Both the position numbers and the translations under genes were made by a program. Positions 4,944 through 53,755 of a DNA stretch of 64,000 nucleotides are shown one piece after another (the first letter of the stretch is position 1; every line of letters begins with the position of its first letter). The stretch is from Chthonomonadales bacterium (lineage in GTDB: Bacteria > Armatimonadota > Chthonomonadetes > Chthonomonadales > CAJBBX01). A model generated the notes under the pieces. The model was not told where the DNA came from and made no database searches. It saw nothing but the letters and a program-made list of their open reading frames with translations. The stretch spans positions 62,001 to 126,000 of the forward strand of contig DAIDHP010000001.1 of assembly GCA_027459625.1 (NCBI GenBank), given 5' to 3'.

Positions 4944-6464
4944 CTAAGTGAATTCTATTTTAAAAACGTTAGCATACGGACTCGGGGTCTTTTCCGGCGG
5001 AGTAATTACGATACCGTTTGGTGTGACGGACCATTTGATTTTACTCCTGGTCCCCAATAAAGAGATCGTTCGAATAGCCTTTTCATGGGATTTAACCGAT
5101 GGTTTCAAGGAATCAATTGTGATCTCCCCCTTCGGCGCCCCCATTACAATCACGTAAAGCGCATCGTTCTTGATGGTGAACCGCTTATCCTCCGGGGTGA
5201 GATCCTTGATTTTGTCCTCCACGAACGCCCCTCCCGCAGTAGGGGTGGGGCCCTCTCCGAAAACCCTCCAGGGTCTTGTATTGTAGATCGCCTCGCCGTT
5301 CACTTTCAACCAATTTCCGATCGTGAGAAGGCGATCTCGCACTTCCTGGGGAATCGTTCCATCCGCCTGCGGGGTGATGTCCAAAAGAAAACATCCGTTT
5401 TTGCTCGTGATATCCACCAGTTCATCTAAAAGACGCTTGACGGATTTATATTGTAAATTTTGAACATAGCACCAAGAGTTCCAGGCTATCGCGTCATCAG
5501 TCATCCACGGACGCTCGGAGATATCCGCCATCCTCCCCCTCTCGAGGTCCTCCACAGCAACGCCGTCCGGAAGGTCTGGTTTTTTATATGTGAGGACGAC
5601 AGGTTTTCGCCATGCGCTCTGTTGGTTATAATAATGGGATATCAAATCCATCCTATAACTCGCCGGGATGATCGCCATGCGGCTGTCGAAATAGATGAGG
5701 TCCGGTCGATAGAGTTCGATCACCTCGCGCACCTTCCTCTCCCACTCCTTGCAAAAAGGCTCGTCCGGCGGCGGCATGGGATGGGAATAGTCGAATGCGG
5801 ATGAAGGCAGCGGCGGACCGTAGAGTCCGGAGTATGCCGGATTGGAGCAATCGCAGGTGGAATCTTCCGTCGGATACCAGCCCCATCGCCACTGATGATG
5901 GAAGGTGGTTACAAACTTCAAGCCCTTGCGTCGCACCGCTTGAGACATCTCCCCCACAAGGTCTCTCTCCGGTCCCATCTTCGCAGCGTTCCACTCATTC
6001 ACTTTGCTGTCCCACATCGAGAACCCGTCTGCGTGCTCCGCCACCGGACCGGCGAATTTGGCGCCCGCTTGCTTGAACAGTTCCGCCCACTCATCGGGAT
6101 CGAATCGCTCGGCCTTGAATTGCGGCGCGAAGTCCTTGTAGCCAAAAGTCAAAAGGGGACCGTAATGCTTCAGATGGTAAGCGTTCGCCGCGGAACCCTT
6201 GATGTACATATTGCGGGAGTACCACTCGTTGTCGTAGGCGGGGACGGAGTAGAGACCCCAGTGGTAATAGATTCCGAATTTGGCGTCGCGGAACCAATCC
6301 GGAACCTGGTATTGCCGGAGGGATTGCCAGTTCGGCTGAAATTCCGCATCCCTTGATATAGCCTCGCCTTGTGCGTCCGTTTCACCGGGAAAGCGCAGCA
6401 TGCTCATCACTTCAACCCCGGAAATCGCACACTGGCGGATGAAGTTGCGCCTGGTTATTGACAT
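4944..6464 (-). CDS. Alpha-L-fucosidase (GH29) with Tat signal
   Basis: 506 aa. The N-terminus SITRRNFIRQCAISGVEVMS carries a twin-arginine motif followed by a weakly hydrophobic stretch, so export by the Tat route is likely, unlike the Sec-dependent paralogue downstream. GH29 landmarks include DWFRDAKFGIYYHWGLYSVP, the AGPVAEHADGFSMWDSKVN block, and PDLIYFDSRM, where the Asp is the expected nucleophile. SKNGCFLLDITPQADGTIP is the conserved block near the end of the catalytic domain. There is no obvious C-terminal binding module. It leads a two-gene fucosidase transcript. Substrate linkage preference cannot be predicted. Confidence 0.9.
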   Translation of the reverse strand: MSITRRNFIRQCAISGVEVMSMLRFPGETDAQGEAISRDAEFQPNWQSLRQYQVPDWFRDAKFGIYYHWGLYSVPAYDNEWYSRNMYIKGSAANAYHLKHYGPLLTFGYKDFAPQFKAERFDPDEWAELFKQAGAKFAGPVAEHADGFSMWDSKVNEWNAAKMGPERDLVGEMSQAVRRKGLKFVTTFHHQWRWGWYPTEDSTCDCSNPAYSGLYGPPLPSSAFDYSHPMPPPDEPFCKEWERKVREVIELYRPDLIYFDSRMAIIPASYRMDLISHYYNQQSAWRKPVVLTYKKPDLPDGVAVEDLERGRMADISERPWMTDDAIAWNSWCYVQNLQYKSVKRLLDELVDITSKNGCFLLDITPQADGTIPQEVRDRLLTIGNWLKVNGEAIYNTRPWRVFGEGPTPTAGGAFVEDKIKDLTPEDKRFTIKNDALYVIVMGAPKGEITIDSLKPSVKSHEKAIRTISLLGTRSKIKWSVTPNGIVITPPEKTPSPYANVFKIEFT

Positions 6465-40173: not shown

Positions 40174-41493
40174 TTACCAGTGAATTCCGTAGTTGGCTTC
40201 CACTTCCCACTGATACATTCGAAGCGTGATGCTCTGTTGCCCCGGCACTTCCATCGGATTCGGTCCGGTTACGGACGATGGAGGGGAGTACATCAGCGAC
40301 ATGGAGAAGTCATCCTTGGAATTAAGCTTCTTGGTGAAACCCGTAGTGATATGCCATTCCTGCACACCTGGGGCAAGAATGTTGAACAACACCTCGCTGC
40401 TGGGAATGGGCTGTCTGCAATAATCCAATCCCGCGCGCACCGTCCAACTGGAACTAACTTGTCTTTGGACACCCAACTTGTAAACCACAACGTCTCTCCA
40501 ACCGAAACCGGCTCCGTTGGATCCTCCCAAAAGGTCATCCGGATCATTGCTTTGGAAACCGTTCATTAGATTGGAAAACGGGTTGCCGATGGAGTGAACT
40601 TGGCTGTACCAGATTTTCTGAACATCGAATTCAATCAGATTCCGATGGCTCTCATTCCAAGCCAGACCCACCGTGGCGTTTTGAGGAATGTCAAAGCCGC
40701 CATGGTCCGCGAAGAGATCCGAGTACTTGGGGAATTTTTGCATGACGATCTTTGTTTGATAGGCAAGTCCAAGTCTCAAGTTCGGTGCGACTTCCCCCAT
40801 GACTCCAAGCGCTCCACCATATCCGAAGGAGTGATCGTACCCTCGGTTCGTAAGATTATTCGTGGAATCGTCGCTATCAAAACTACCAAACGCGGAAAGT
40901 CCTTTGGCGGAGAACTGTTGGTAGGCTAAGATCAAAGAAACTCCCCATGACGCCTTGTTATTAAACTTTCGCGAGTAAGAGGGGATCATGTAAAGCTGGG
41001 AAAGATCCACTCCCGCCGATCCTCCGTAAAAGGTGCCTGTGGGCATCCCTTTGCCGTTGCTAATGGCGGGATAGTTGGTGTTCATTCCACCATTGCCGTA
41101 CATTGTGAAGCCAAAGGAACTATTCGGTGTGAGCATATGGTTGGTTGCAAGGTGAGGATTTCCGAAAAAGTCCTGATTGCTTCTCACAGTACCCGGCGTC
41201 AATCCGAAAGTTCCCTGTTGGCCAGAAGGGTTACCCTGCACACTGTAAGACCGTTCGGGAATGAAGAGCGCCGCCCCTATATCGAAACGGTTCCCGATAA
41301 AAACCAATCCCGCAGGATTGATAGCCGCCGCCATGGCATCCTGGGGATAGGCGACGCCCACCCCTCCCATGCCTTTTGAAATGGTACCATATCCGTTTTC
41401 AAAATAGCCATCCGTGGCGTAAACTGCCCGTGGCGCAACAATAAGCGCCGCCAAGCCCAGCGCAACGCATGCGCAGGCGAAATTGCGTTTCAT
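40174..41493 (-). CDS. FadL/OmpP1/TodX-type outer-membrane transporter
   Basis: 439 aa with a signal peptide (ACACVALGLAALIVAPRAVYA, cleaved after YA). The mature start TDGYFENGYGTISKGMGGVG, then AYPQDAMAAAINPAGLVFIG, is the conserved N-terminal hatch of FadL proteins. Beta-strand-rich sequence follows and the last residues (QWEVEANYGIHW) end in an aromatic, as expected for an outer-membrane beta-barrel. These porins take up hydrophobic molecules such as fatty acids, aromatics or toluene. Its position inside the sulfur-relay cluster suggests a hydrophobic substrate for that system. It has a 240-nt gap before dsrE2. Confidence 0.9.
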   Translation of the reverse strand: MKRNFACACVALGLAALIVAPRAVYATDGYFENGYGTISKGMGGVGVAYPQDAMAAAINPAGLVFIGNRFDIGAALFIPERSYSVQGNPSGQQGTFGLTPGTVRSNQDFFGNPHLATNHMLTPNSSFGFTMYGNGGMNTNYPAISNGKGMPTGTFYGGSAGVDLSQLYMIPSYSRKFNNKASWGVSLILAYQQFSAKGLSAFGSFDSDDSTNNLTNRGYDHSFGYGGALGVMGEVAPNLRLGLAYQTKIVMQKFPKYSDLFADHGGFDIPQNATVGLAWNESHRNLIEFDVQKIWYSQVHSIGNPFSNLMNGFQSNDPDDLLGGSNGAGFGWRDVVVYKLGVQRQVSSSWTVRAGLDYCRQPIPSSEVLFNILAPGVQEWHITTGFTKKLNSKDDFSMSLMYSPPSSVTGPNPMEVPGQQSITLRMYQWEVEANYGIHW

Positions 41494-41734: not shown

Positions 41735-42310
41735 CTAAATGAAGAGAGAAGCCTTGCTGGAGCCAGCCTCCTGCAGGAATTTCGCCACCCCTGCGGGTTT
41801 CATGTCCGGATAATCTATCAATTCCTCCTGAGAGAATCCCATTAAATCCATGCTCATCTGGCAAACATAGATTTTAACACCGGAATCCCCCGCCTGCTTG
41901 ATCAGCTTGTCAAGCGACATGACGTTTTTCTTTTGCATGAGTCCTTTGAGCATATTGGTGCCCATCCCGCCCATATTCATTTTGGAGAGAACCACCTTGT
42001 CGGCACCCTTGGGAAGCATAGACCCGAACATTTTGCTCATGAAATCCTTCCCCTTAGGGGTTTTATTCGGGTCTCTTAGAGCCGCCGTGGCCCAGAAGGT
42101 GAAGAACATCACCACCTCCTCGTACATCGCCATGGCGCCTGTTGCAATGATGAAAGCTGCGAGAAGCTTGTCAAGGTCGCCGCTGAAAACAACCATGGAG
42201 AGTTTATCCTCGGGAAGGGAGGAGGATTTGATCTCCTCCAACTCCTCACGAAGACTCTCAACCTGTTGTTGCAGTTGCTCTATGGTTAATGCGGATACAT
42301 CCATTGCCAT
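41735..42310 (-). CDS. DsrE2-type sulfur relay protein (DsrE/DsrF/DrsH-like family)
   Basis: 191 aa. Residues ~8-30 form a short coiled coil, followed by the DsrE fold KLSMVVFSGDLDKLLAAFII. Cys150 in VKIYVCQMSMDLMG is the likely sulfur-carrying cysteine. Hydrophobic segments (AGAMAMYEEVVMFFTFWATA) suggest membrane contact, which is typical for DsrE2 proteins. AAGGAGAACGAAG precedes ATG 42310. DsrE2 commonly works with TusA and rhodanese in sulfur trafficking, and here tusA and a rhodanese fusion lie in the same cluster. It starts 11 nt after the qmoC-like gene's stop, so it is co-transcribed with it. Confidence 0.87.
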   Translation of the reverse strand: MAMDVSALTIEQLQQQVESLREELEEIKSSSLPEDKLSMVVFSGDLDKLLAAFIIATGAMAMYEEVVMFFTFWATAALRDPNKTPKGKDFMSKMFGSMLPKGADKVVLSKMNMGGMGTNMLKGLMQKKNVMSLDKLIKQAGDSGVKIYVCQMSMDLMGFSQEELIDYPDMKPAGVAKFLQEAGSSKASLFI

Positions 42311-43444: not shown

Positions 43445-43729
43445 TCACTTCTTTCTATAGGCGATGTAATCGCCCTTTTTCGTTTCGTCGGATACTTTGT
43501 TATATTTTCGCATGGCGGTGATCCACCAGAAGACCTCCTGTGTGTTCATGCCGGTGGCTTCGGCGATTTCGGGAACCGTCTTAGCCTCCTTGTCAATCAC
43601 AGCAAGGATCGCTTTTTGCGCTTTGATCTGTTCTTTGCTGCGCTCCTGCTTCTCCTTTGAGCCTTCCCCCCGCCGCGCTCTTAGTTCCTTGATTTGCTCG
43701 GTGTAACTCAGTTTTTTCTCTTCTTCCAT
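43445..43729 (-). CDS. Small winged-helix-like protein in the Hdr/Qmo cluster
   Basis: 94 aa. The N-terminal ~45 residues are a charged helix (Lys/Glu/Arg-rich). The rest looks like a winged helix: ILAVIDKEAKTVPEIAEATG, then VFWWITAMRKYNKVSDETKK, ending in a short beta hairpin. No cysteine. It starts 21 nt after the HdrA-like gene's stop and ends 7 nt before qmoC. It might be a regulator of the cluster, or a structural subunit whose fold resembles a DNA-binding domain; small genes of this type occur in other Hdr/Qmo clusters as far as I recall. Confidence 0.65.
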   Translation of the reverse strand: MEEEKKLSYTEQIKELRARRGEGSKEKQERSKEQIKAQKAILAVIDKEAKTVPEIAEATGMNTQEVFWWITAMRKYNKVSDETKKGDYIAYRKK

Positions 43730-47304: not shown

Positions 47305-47553
47305 CTACTTGCGGCGAATGACGTAAAGACTATCGTAACCGTCTTTCTCGAGAAAACCAATGAACTCCTGGCCTGTCTTTTTGCACCAAGCGGAGATGTC
47401 CTCTCGACTGCCCTTGTCGCCTGACTGGATTTCCAATGTTTGTCCGACTGTAACTCCTCCGATGGCTTTCTTCGCTTCGAGCAGAGGGCCCGGGCACGCC
47501 ATGGATCGAGCATCCACAACTTTATTTGGGGTGATTCCTTCTAGGTTTGCCAT
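47305..47553 (-). CDS. tusA: TusA-family sulfur carrier protein
   Basis: 82 aa from ATG 47553, preceded by GAGAGGAAAG; the longer frame back to 47592 lies inside the transcript leader. KVVDARSMACPGPLLEAKKA contains the family's CPxP persulfide cysteine (C20). TusA accepts sulfur from a rhodanese or DsrE-type donor and passes it on as a persulfide. A second Cys in AWCKKTGQ lies near residue 57. The protein is small and cytoplasmic. It heads the Hdr/Qmo cluster and is transcribed from the promoter at 47609-47637. Confidence 0.93.
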   Translation of the reverse strand: MANLEGITPNKVVDARSMACPGPLLEAKKAIGGVTVGQTLEIQSGDKGSREDISAWCKKTGQEFIGFLEKDGYDSLYVIRRK

Positions 47554-47608: not shown

Positions 47609-47637
47609 ATTATATATCAATATTCATATATAGTCAA
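47609..47637 (-). promoter_or_regulatory. Strong promoter of the tusA-Hdr/Qmo cluster
   Basis: On the minus strand TTGACT (47637-47632), a 17-nt spacer and TATAAT (47614-47609): an almost consensus sigma70 promoter. The predicted start near 47602 leaves a leader of about 48 nt before the tusA ATG. I saw no other equally strong promoter between 47.6 and 37.9 kb, so a long transcript is possible. Confidence 0.85.
47611..47632 (-). promoter_or_regulatory. AT-rich near-palindrome filling the tusA promoter spacer (candidate operator)
   Basis: The 22 nt from 47611 to 47632 are symmetric except for one mismatched base pair on each side of the centre: TATATAT, an unpaired base, AATATT, an unpaired base, ATATATA. 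It occupies the spacer and touches both the -35 and -10 hexamers. A repressor bound here would block polymerase, as ArsR-type sulfur-sensing repressors do. The AT-richness means chance symmetry is possible. Confidence 0.5.
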
Positions 47638-47763
47638 CTTTTTCTGAGATTTTTTTCACAGAGTTTTTTCCTGTTTTTTTTGTTAATGTGGCGTTCAGCA
47701 CCCTTTCAACACGATTAACGGCTTTTTTAGGCGCGTTTATAAAAGATTTTTCTTATTTTATTT

Positions 47764-47794
47764 ATTAATATGGCTAAATATTAGCCATATTAAT
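47764..47794. repeat. Perfect 14-bp inverted repeat between atpC and tusA
   Basis: ATTAATATGGCTAA (47764-47777), ATA, then TTAGCCATATTAAT (47781-47794), with no mismatch. It is about 70 nt past the atpC stop and 130 nt upstream of the tusA promoter. On the minus strand it is followed by an A-rich stretch, not T, so it is not a standard intrinsic terminator. Confidence 0.7.
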
Positions 47795-51760: not shown

Positions 51761-53755
51761 ATGGCTTCAACCTACCCCAAAGGAATCTCAAACCCTTCCG
51801 ACGAGATGAAAGCGAACAAAGGATATGTGGCGGCGGTCACTTGGCGATCCATCATCCTTGCGATTATACTCCTCCCCATAAATGCGTATTGGGTGGTTCA
51901 GATGGAGATCGTGCGTTATTCCGCCCATCCCACCACCATTTCGCTTTTTTTCAATATTGTCTTCGAGATACTCGTTCTCACCCTTATCAATCGTTCCGTA
52001 CGTCGTTATTTTCCGAGAGCTTCGCTGAACAGAGCGGAACTACTTTTCATCTATACTAGCCTAGCGATAGGATCCTGTATCACAGGGCATGACACATTGC
52101 AGATACTGGTGCCTATGCTCTCCTGGTTAACACGAAACACAGATGAATCTCACAAATGGACCGCTCTCTTCGGAAAGTATCTGCCGAAATGGTGCATGAT
52201 CACCAATCCCGCCATTAGCAGGGGCTACTATCAGGGTAATGATTCGATATACCATGTGAATTACATCCTTGCTTGGCTGCCAGTGGTTTTGATTTGGTCG
52301 CTCTTTATCACTGTTCTTCTTTTTGTGATGCTATGCATCAACTCCATCCTACGAAAGCAATGGACCGACAACGAGAAACTCTCCTATCCGATCATCCAAC
52401 TCCCATTGCAAATAACCAACGAGCAATCGTTCGCCCCCAAGACCGGGCTATTCCACAATTGGCTCTTTTGGCTGGGTTTTAGCATCGCTGTATCCATCGA
52501 CCTCATAAACAGTTTGAACGTGTACTTCCCCTCGATCCCAACCATACTGACTCCGGGCAGGGGGCAAAGCTTTTACGATTTGAGCCAATGGGTCACCACG
52601 AAACCTTGGAATGCGATCGGGTGGACACCATTATCCTTTTACCCGTTCTTGGTTGGGCTTGGGATGCTCATGCCGGTGGACTTCCTCTTCTCCTGCTGGT
52701 TCTTCTACATATTCTGGAAAATGGAGAATGTCGTCACCGTTGCTATGGCGTGGGACCACGATCCCCGGTTCCCCTACATGAACGATCAGGCTTTTGGAGC
52801 GTACATGGCGTTCTGCGTGTATACGGTGTGGCTCTCCCGAGGCTATTTGGGGGAGACGCTGAAAAAGGCGCTGGGAAAGCCATCCACGCTTCTCGATGAT
52901 GATGAAGCATTAACCTATCGGGGAGCGTATATTGGAATAATGGTTGGCATGGCGGGGCTGATATGGTTTTCCGATGAAATTGGCATGGGACCCTGGCTTC
53001 CGCTGGCGTTCTTCGCGATCTATTTCGCGTTGGCGATCGCAATTACCCGCATGCGAGCGGAGCTAGGCACCCCCGTGCACGATCTCCACTTCACAGGCCC
53101 GGACTGGGTGCTCACCGAGGTGTTAGGACAACGGGGCACATTCACGCCCACCCAACTGGGTGCGTTTACGATGTTCTTCTGGTTTAACCGCGCCTATCGC
53201 GGTCACCCCATGCCTCATCAGTTGGAGGGGTTTAAGCTCGCGGAACAGAGCCGTAGCGAATACCGAAAATGGTTCTGGGGAATGGCTGTCATCGGTTTTC
53301 TGGGAGCGTTGGCGGGATTTTGGGCGATACTGGAGCTAATGTACTCCTATGGAGCCAGTGCAAAGTCCGCGATCACGTTCGGACCGGAAGCGTTTTCCCG
53401 CCTTGAGACATGGATGAAATCTCCGAAACCCGCGAGTTTTCCAGCCGCAATCGCTATTGCGGTGGGGTTTTTTACGGCGATGGGACTTCAATGGATGCGT
53501 GTCAGGTACATATGGTGGCCGTTCCACCCTCTCGCCTATGCGGTAACCTCAAGCTGGGAAATCAATCTCGTGTGGCTCCCGCTCTTCATCGCCTGGGTTT
53601 GCAAGGTGACCATTCTGCATTACGGAGGGAGGAAGGGGATACAGAAAAGCATGCCATTTTTCTTCGGTTTAATGATCGGTCAATTCGTTCTGGGAAGTCT
53701 TCTAAACATCTGGGGTATTATCATGCAGTATCCAACCTATCAATTTTGGCAGTAA
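51761..53755 (+). CDS. Polytopic membrane protein, DUF6785/DUF6784-type
   Basis: 664 aa, with 14 or so hydrophobic helices. The characteristic segments include TWRSIILAIILLPINAYWVV, WTDNEKLSYPIIQLPLQITN, MRAELGTPVHDLHFTGPDWV and a C-terminal MQWMRVRYIWWPFHPLAYAV-like stretch (RVRYIWWPFHPLAYAV). This combination is what I associate with DUF6785 plus DUF6784, a family common in Armatimonadota and Planctomycetota with no proven function; it is distantly similar to OPT oligopeptide transporters. It precedes a ribokinase-family gene on the same strand, so uptake of a sugar or nucleoside is possible. Confidence 0.7.
   Translation: MASTYPKGISNPSDEMKANKGYVAAVTWRSIILAIILLPINAYWVVQMEIVRYSAHPTTISLFFNIVFEILVLTLINRSVRRYFPRASLNRAELLFIYTSLAIGSCITGHDTLQILVPMLSWLTRNTDESHKWTALFGKYLPKWCMITNPAISRGYYQGNDSIYHVNYILAWLPVVLIWSLFITVLLFVMLCINSILRKQWTDNEKLSYPIIQLPLQITNEQSFAPKTGLFHNWLFWLGFSIAVSIDLINSLNVYFPSIPTILTPGRGQSFYDLSQWVTTKPWNAIGWTPLSFYPFLVGLGMLMPVDFLFSCWFFYIFWKMENVVTVAMAWDHDPRFPYMNDQAFGAYMAFCVYTVWLSRGYLGETLKKALGKPSTLLDDDEALTYRGAYIGIMVGMAGLIWFSDEIGMGPWLPLAFFAIYFALAIAITRMRAELGTPVHDLHFTGPDWVLTEVLGQRGTFTPTQLGAFTMFFWFNRAYRGHPMPHQLEGFKLAEQSRSEYRKWFWGMAVIGFLGALAGFWAILELMYSYGASAKSAITFGPEAFSRLETWMKSPKPASFPAAIAIAVGFFTAMGLQWMRVRYIWWPFHPLAYAVTSSWEINLVWLPLFIAWVCKVTILHYGGRKGIQKSMPFFFGLMIGQFVLGSLLNIWGIIMQYPTYQFWQ

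Follow-up and report, generated by a model that had tools for sequence, protein, structure and literature searches.

A palindrome in the promoter spacer of a tusA-flpD-hdrA operon in Armatimonadota is a predicted operator of an ArsR/SmtB repressor

The window (the whole 64-kb stretch of DNA that was analyzed, from an uncultivated Armatimonadota bacterium) contains seven minus-strand genes, tusA-flpD-hdrA-hdrA-orf94-qmoC-like-dsrE2, with at most about 20 nt between neighbours (Table 1). A gap of about 240 nt separates dsrE2 from a FadL-type porin gene, and after another of about 600 nt comes a CoA-disulfide-reductase/rhodanese gene. The porin is an outer membrane protein of the FadL/TodX type (40174-41493). 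In genome G059 (locus L098) a similar protein ends immediately before tusA, and a related-looking one is found ahead of arsR-tusA in several Acidobacteria loci (L109, L111, L112, L117, L118); it appears to be a recurrent partner of the tusA module, perhaps a channel for a sulfur compound. Also near the module in the window is a gene for a DUF6785/DUF6784 protein (51761-53755), whose homologues adjoin an arsR-HlyD-AcrB operon in G006, G008 and G010 (L089, L090, L093).

Table 1. Genes and promoter elements at the tusA locus, in positions of the window
Feature	Position	Strand	Evidence
TusA, 82 aa, first gene of the operon	47305..47553	-	Pfam PF01206, 66.6 bits
FlpD/MvhD-like, 138 aa	46867..47283	-	Pfam PF02662; relatives in 33 loci
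HdrA/QmoA-like flavoprotein with 4Fe-4S, 434 aa	45566..46870	-	
HdrA/QmoB-like flavoprotein, 602 aa	43751..45559	-	
Conserved 94-aa module protein	43445..43729	-	no Pfam family
4Fe-4S and NarI-like membrane protein, QmoC/HdrC-like, 371 aa	42322..43437	-	
DsrE2-like protein, 191 aa, last gene ahead of the large gap	41735..42310	-	Pfam PF13686
-35 hexamer TTGACT	47632..47637	-	promoter scan
-10 hexamer TATAAT	47609..47614	-	promoter scan
22-bp near-palindrome, predicted ArsR-family operator	47611..47632	.	10/11 pairs

Upstream of tusA, whose start codon lies at 47553, the minus strand reads TTGACT-ATATATGAATATTGATA-TATAAT from 47637 to 47609. This promoter matches the sigma-70 consensus at 11 of 12 positions with a spacer of 17 nt, and came top of the 10 promoter-like sites in the 7 kb scanned. 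An earlier sequence-only reading of this DNA had described it as almost consensus and as holding a 22-nt near-palindrome, and both descriptions proved accurate: the dyad, TATATATcAATATTcATATATA, pairs at 10 of its 11 positions. The palindrome was also said to fill the spacer exactly and to touch both hexamers. It does touch both, but the word "exactly" is slightly off, as the 22-mer spans the whole 17-nt spacer and runs into both hexamers, by 1 nt at the -35 and by 4 nt at the -10. Two further features were noted upstream. A-tracts 5' of the -35 box (about 47638-47690) are invariant between both genomes of the genus and may act as an UP element. Between atpC and tusA there is a perfect inverted repeat of 13 bp with a 3-nt loop (TTAATATGGCTAA-ATA-TTAGCCATATTAA, 47765-47793); it is unchanged in the same-genus relative and is possibly the terminator of the atp operon, yet no T run follows it.

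Taken alone, the bare symmetry of the 22-mer is only modestly unusual and is weak evidence. Two such 22-mers were observed in the window against 0.75 expected in Markov-1 sequence. Within the local 141 nt the palindrome has a P of about 0.001. When the 22-mer itself was Markov-shuffled, 2.7% of the shuffles were as symmetric (P 0.027), because TA runs are self-complementary. With symmetry only modestly above chance, the case for an operator therefore rests on comparison.

No other match to the 22-mer at up to three mismatches was found in the window, and the 4.55-Mb genome (G000) has a single further one, at G000:C4:22577-22598, identical to the tusA site at 19 of 22 positions. It is the promoter of a gene for an ArsR/SmtB protein of 109 aa (C4; G000:C4:22231-22557), which is among the seven PF01022 matches in the genome. 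A second ArsR paralogue of the same subfamily, C14, is encoded at G000:C14:72439-72726. Their HTH_5 winged-helix domains score 51.2 bits (C4) and 39.7 bits (C14) against a curated cut-off of 22, which places both in the ArsR/SmtB family, and the PDB matches of the ArsR candidates include NmtR, YgaV, SqrR and CzrA. When the genome was searched with a looser pattern (ATAT-N4-ATAT-N4-ATAT with flanking T and A, up to one mismatch), seven sites were found versus three for the reversed control; the only exact site was that of tusA, and the C4 and C14 ArsR genes were among those with one mismatch.

Judged from sequence, the element recurs across the order in the promoters of this ArsR subfamily, again placed in the same register between their own -35 and -10 boxes. 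The promoter of the ArsR gene of G003, for example, reads TTGACT-ATATATAAATATTCATA-TATAAT, to be compared with the tusA promoter given above. In many genomes the dyad lies over the promoter of a gene from the subfamily itself, a placement that points to autoregulation. We trained a matrix restricted to the 17 spacer positions on 14 ArsR-subfamily promoters from other genomes. The tusA spacer scored 17.25 and outranked every other position in the window, on either strand; left-out positive promoters scored 4.9-21.6 (the training promoters are kin by descent and so not fully independent, and tusA is not homologous to them), and 125 other promoter-like spacers had a mean of -19.6 and a maximum of 0.7. 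Shuffles equalled the tusA score at a P of 5e-5, and with the closest trainer removed the tusA spacer still scored 15.2. The tusA spacers of three g7 genomes score 10.5, that of G059 scores weakly (1.0), and the best score for the C14 gene itself is only 12.6.

When a 21-nt matrix was run over 989 kb, most of its top sites preceded either tusA or genes of the ArsR subfamily, and some of these sites had not been used for training. For the phylum we scanned with the pattern TTGACNNNATANNNATATNNNNATATA. Its six exact matches in 31 genomes correspond to two tusA and four ArsR-subfamily genes; in 291 genomes there are nine, at six ArsR-subfamily genes, two tusA genes and one gene for an HlyD-type membrane-fusion protein, and the reversed pattern, used as a control, had 0 matches in any of the 291. 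Allowing one mismatch added eleven sites in the 291 genomes, four of them at ArsR genes, of which one belongs to a different subfamily, and one at a CoA-disulfide-reductase-like gene of G006, the remainder being mixed. An arsR-HlyD-AcrB (RND efflux) operon is conserved and widespread in Armatimonadota, often with a related operator (L002, L049, L050, L051, L053, L062, L070).

In G001, the one same-genus relative, the palindrome is unchanged and lies inside a block of ~85 nt without substitutions, whereas the sequence further upstream differs from that of the window. Three g7 genomes have related palindromes in nearly the same register before tusA. The sequence-only reading had tied its proposal to conservation of the palindrome in close relatives, and such conservation is found in these genomes. 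In G012, which has a tusA module, a close ArsR and the operator are missing together, and this speaks for the link between the two. Against it, the tusA orthologues of L102, L103 and L105 have no such promoter within 350 nt.

The relatives also link ArsR genes to tusA in cis. In G008 and G010, the gene directly before tusA encodes an ArsR of the same subfamily. We collected 33 loci with a tusA-flpD module from genome contigs; an ArsR gene is directly upstream of tusA in 14, including Acidobacteria, Chloroflexota and Methylomirabilis records, the ArsRs concerned belonging to different subfamilies, and two more loci have the order ArsR-DsrE-tusA. In G007 and G011, a related ArsR is found in front of a CoA-disulfide-reductase/rhodanese gene, and this sister group, which heads such a gene with a rhodanese domain in g7 genomes, is joined to the tusA-linked one in a supported clade.

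Neither ArsR gene is adjacent to tusA in the window genome, and both paralogues are candidate regulators. The tree does not discriminate between C4 and C14 (p-AU 0.57 against 0.46). C4 is favoured by the similarity of its site to the tusA operator (19/22), and C14 because G001 keeps the operator together with a C14 orthologue, while the C4 locus was looked for in G001 and not found. We slightly prefer C14 as the tusA regulator; this choice and the chemical signal are the least certain of our conclusions. We considered that G001 might lack the ArsR and rejected this: its contig C234 starts inside the C14 orthologue, so that the gene is present and cut by the contig end, with the promoter and first codons retained.

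The best explanation, to which we assign a probability of roughly 0.8, is that the palindrome is the operator of an ArsR/SmtB repressor that is encoded elsewhere in the genome and represses the tusA operon. Comparison between genomes supplies the element, its register in the promoter, its recurrence at the promoters of the candidate repressors, the membership of the putative regulon and the cis-linkage of ArsR and tusA in relatives; binding, repression and release by ArsR are what we infer. An ArsR homodimer would sit on the 22-bp dyad, covering the spacer and overlapping the -35 and -10 boxes, and would thereby exclude RNA polymerase and keep the seven-gene operon off. Release would come from a signal, most likely sulfane sulfur or persulfide, whose targets would be conserved cysteines, for example Cys95 of the last helix. 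The dimeric repressor and inducible module first proposed from the window are thus well supported, since the element is by all appearances the auto-operator of an ArsR/SmtB subfamily, a member of which directly precedes tusA in two relatives.

It is improbable that there is no regulator at all and that the 22-mer is merely the AT-rich spacer of a strong constitutive promoter. The two such 22-mers per 64 kb and the 2.7% of Markov shuffles would be compatible with symmetry arising by chance, but the matrix and pattern tests set the site against other promoters and other genomes, and other spacers score far lower. A comparably small chance attaches to a site that belongs to some other kind of repressor (Fur, Rrf2, TetR or an SqrR-type ArsR) and has converged on the ArsR-subfamily element. 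AT-rich palindromes are used by many repressors and one tusA-linked ArsR elsewhere (L104) is SqrR-like; against this, the sole near match in the genome is at a gene of the ArsR subfamily, and nearly all exact pattern matches across the phylum precede genes of that subfamily or tusA. A site for a MerR-family activator would explain the position between the -35 and -10 boxes. MerR promoters, however, typically have spacers of 19-20 nt, the spacer here has the optimal 17 nt, and the element recurs before ArsR rather than MerR genes; we rejected this activator for its wrong spacer length and consider it extremely unlikely.

A rival of more weight, doubtful in our view but a real possibility, keeps repression by ArsR and takes the signal to be a metal ion, an oxidant or some toxic compound that the co-regulated RND pump exports, the tusA operon then being part of a stress regulon. 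Orthologues of the C4 type head arsR-HlyD-AcrB operons in many genomes, RND efflux by these operons need not be related to sulfur, and the alpha2 Cys of SqrR is replaced by an invariant Asp. On the other side, the element or the subfamily is tied to tusA and to CoA-disulfide reductase/rhodanese genes, both of which encode sulfane-sulfur proteins, and casual rather than systematic inspection noticed no canonical metal-site motif. We give about an even chance to a sulfur signal (sulfane sulfur or persulfide) as the releaser of the ArsR repressor, because of the gene context of the regulon (TusA, DsrE2, CoA-disulfide reductase/rhodanese).

The persulfide or redox sensing suggested by the sequence-only reading is accordingly favoured by gene context, but the dithiol signature of SqrR/BigR is missing from the ArsR subfamily. 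The alpha2 Cys of SqrR/YgaV aligns with Asp33, which is invariant in 17 subfamily sequences, and an SqrR-type sensor was rejected on this ground. An invariant Cys95 in alpha5, at a different position from the SqrR-type Cys, is an alternative candidate sensor residue. C14 and both tusA-linked g8 proteins have a vicinal CC pair, which is absent in C4 and most others, and C14 and the tusA-linked g8 proteins also have Cys72. Elsewhere, both SqrR-type places are occupied by cysteines (IVCQLL, KLYCP) in the tusA-linked ArsR of L104 (about 5215-5575), from a record that bears the label Silvanigrella. Tentatively, the Armatimonadota subfamily (Asp33 in alpha2, invariant Cys95, optional CC or Cys72) might form a separate class of sulfane-sulfur sensors, with one spacer operator code coupling the TusA-DsrE2-Qmo-like module for sulfur electron transfer, the CoA-disulfide reductase/rhodanese and the RND pump.

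Several known systems resemble the one predicted here. In autoregulated ArsR/SmtB metal-efflux operons, the repressor gene comes first, with an operator over its own promoter, and the efflux genes follow. The arsR-HlyD-AcrB layout is alike; unlike in those operons, the predicted operator is also found at sulfur genes. SqrR, BigR, YgaV and HlyU make up the persulfide-sensing ArsR cluster 4, whose defining feature is a Cys pair in alpha2 and alpha5 and whose members co-localise with sulfurtransferases and rhodaneses (PMC10509353, PMC5823870). Fold and family are the same as here, but our subfamily is without the first (alpha2) Cys. RexT, a redox sensor of the ArsR family that targets trxA2, has its vicinal cysteines in alpha3 (PMC8960804); C14 and the tusA-linked g8 proteins also have a CC pair, placed ahead of the recognition helix, whereas most members of the subfamily do not, and RexT is not among the PDB matches listed for the ArsR candidates.

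Also comparable are sHdrR and SoxR of Hyphomicrobium denitrificans, ArsR-type repressors of sulfur oxidation genes including heterodisulfide-reductase-like (shdr) clusters, which have Cys50/Cys116 and a sulfur bridge (PMC12423496, PMC10451225). Many ArsRs found with shdr clusters do not have the two sensor cysteines (PMC12423496). We found no printed operator sequence of SoxR, YgaV or BigR for comparison in the literature searched. An ArsR gene beside a tusA/hdr cluster, or an operator at it, marks the sHdrR-type arrangement, and here the predicted operator is at tusA. ArsR-type control of sulfur hdr-type genes is a predicted common feature; the differences are the Asp in place of the alpha2 Cys, a regulator predicted to act in trans, an operon that is FlpD/Qmo-like rather than sHdr, and a host in Armatimonadota. 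The principle of ArsR control over hdr-type clusters for sulfur oxidation is known from sHdrR; the case described here adds a member from a different phylum, whose cysteines are arranged otherwise and whose operator code is clear. Armatimonadota has few cultured members, and comparative genomics alone is what ties the operator to its candidate repressors and a regulon; the link indicates when the widespread and poorly understood TusA-FlpD-HdrAA module is likely used, and offers an ArsR group for a direct test of sulfur sensing without the SqrR cysteine pair.
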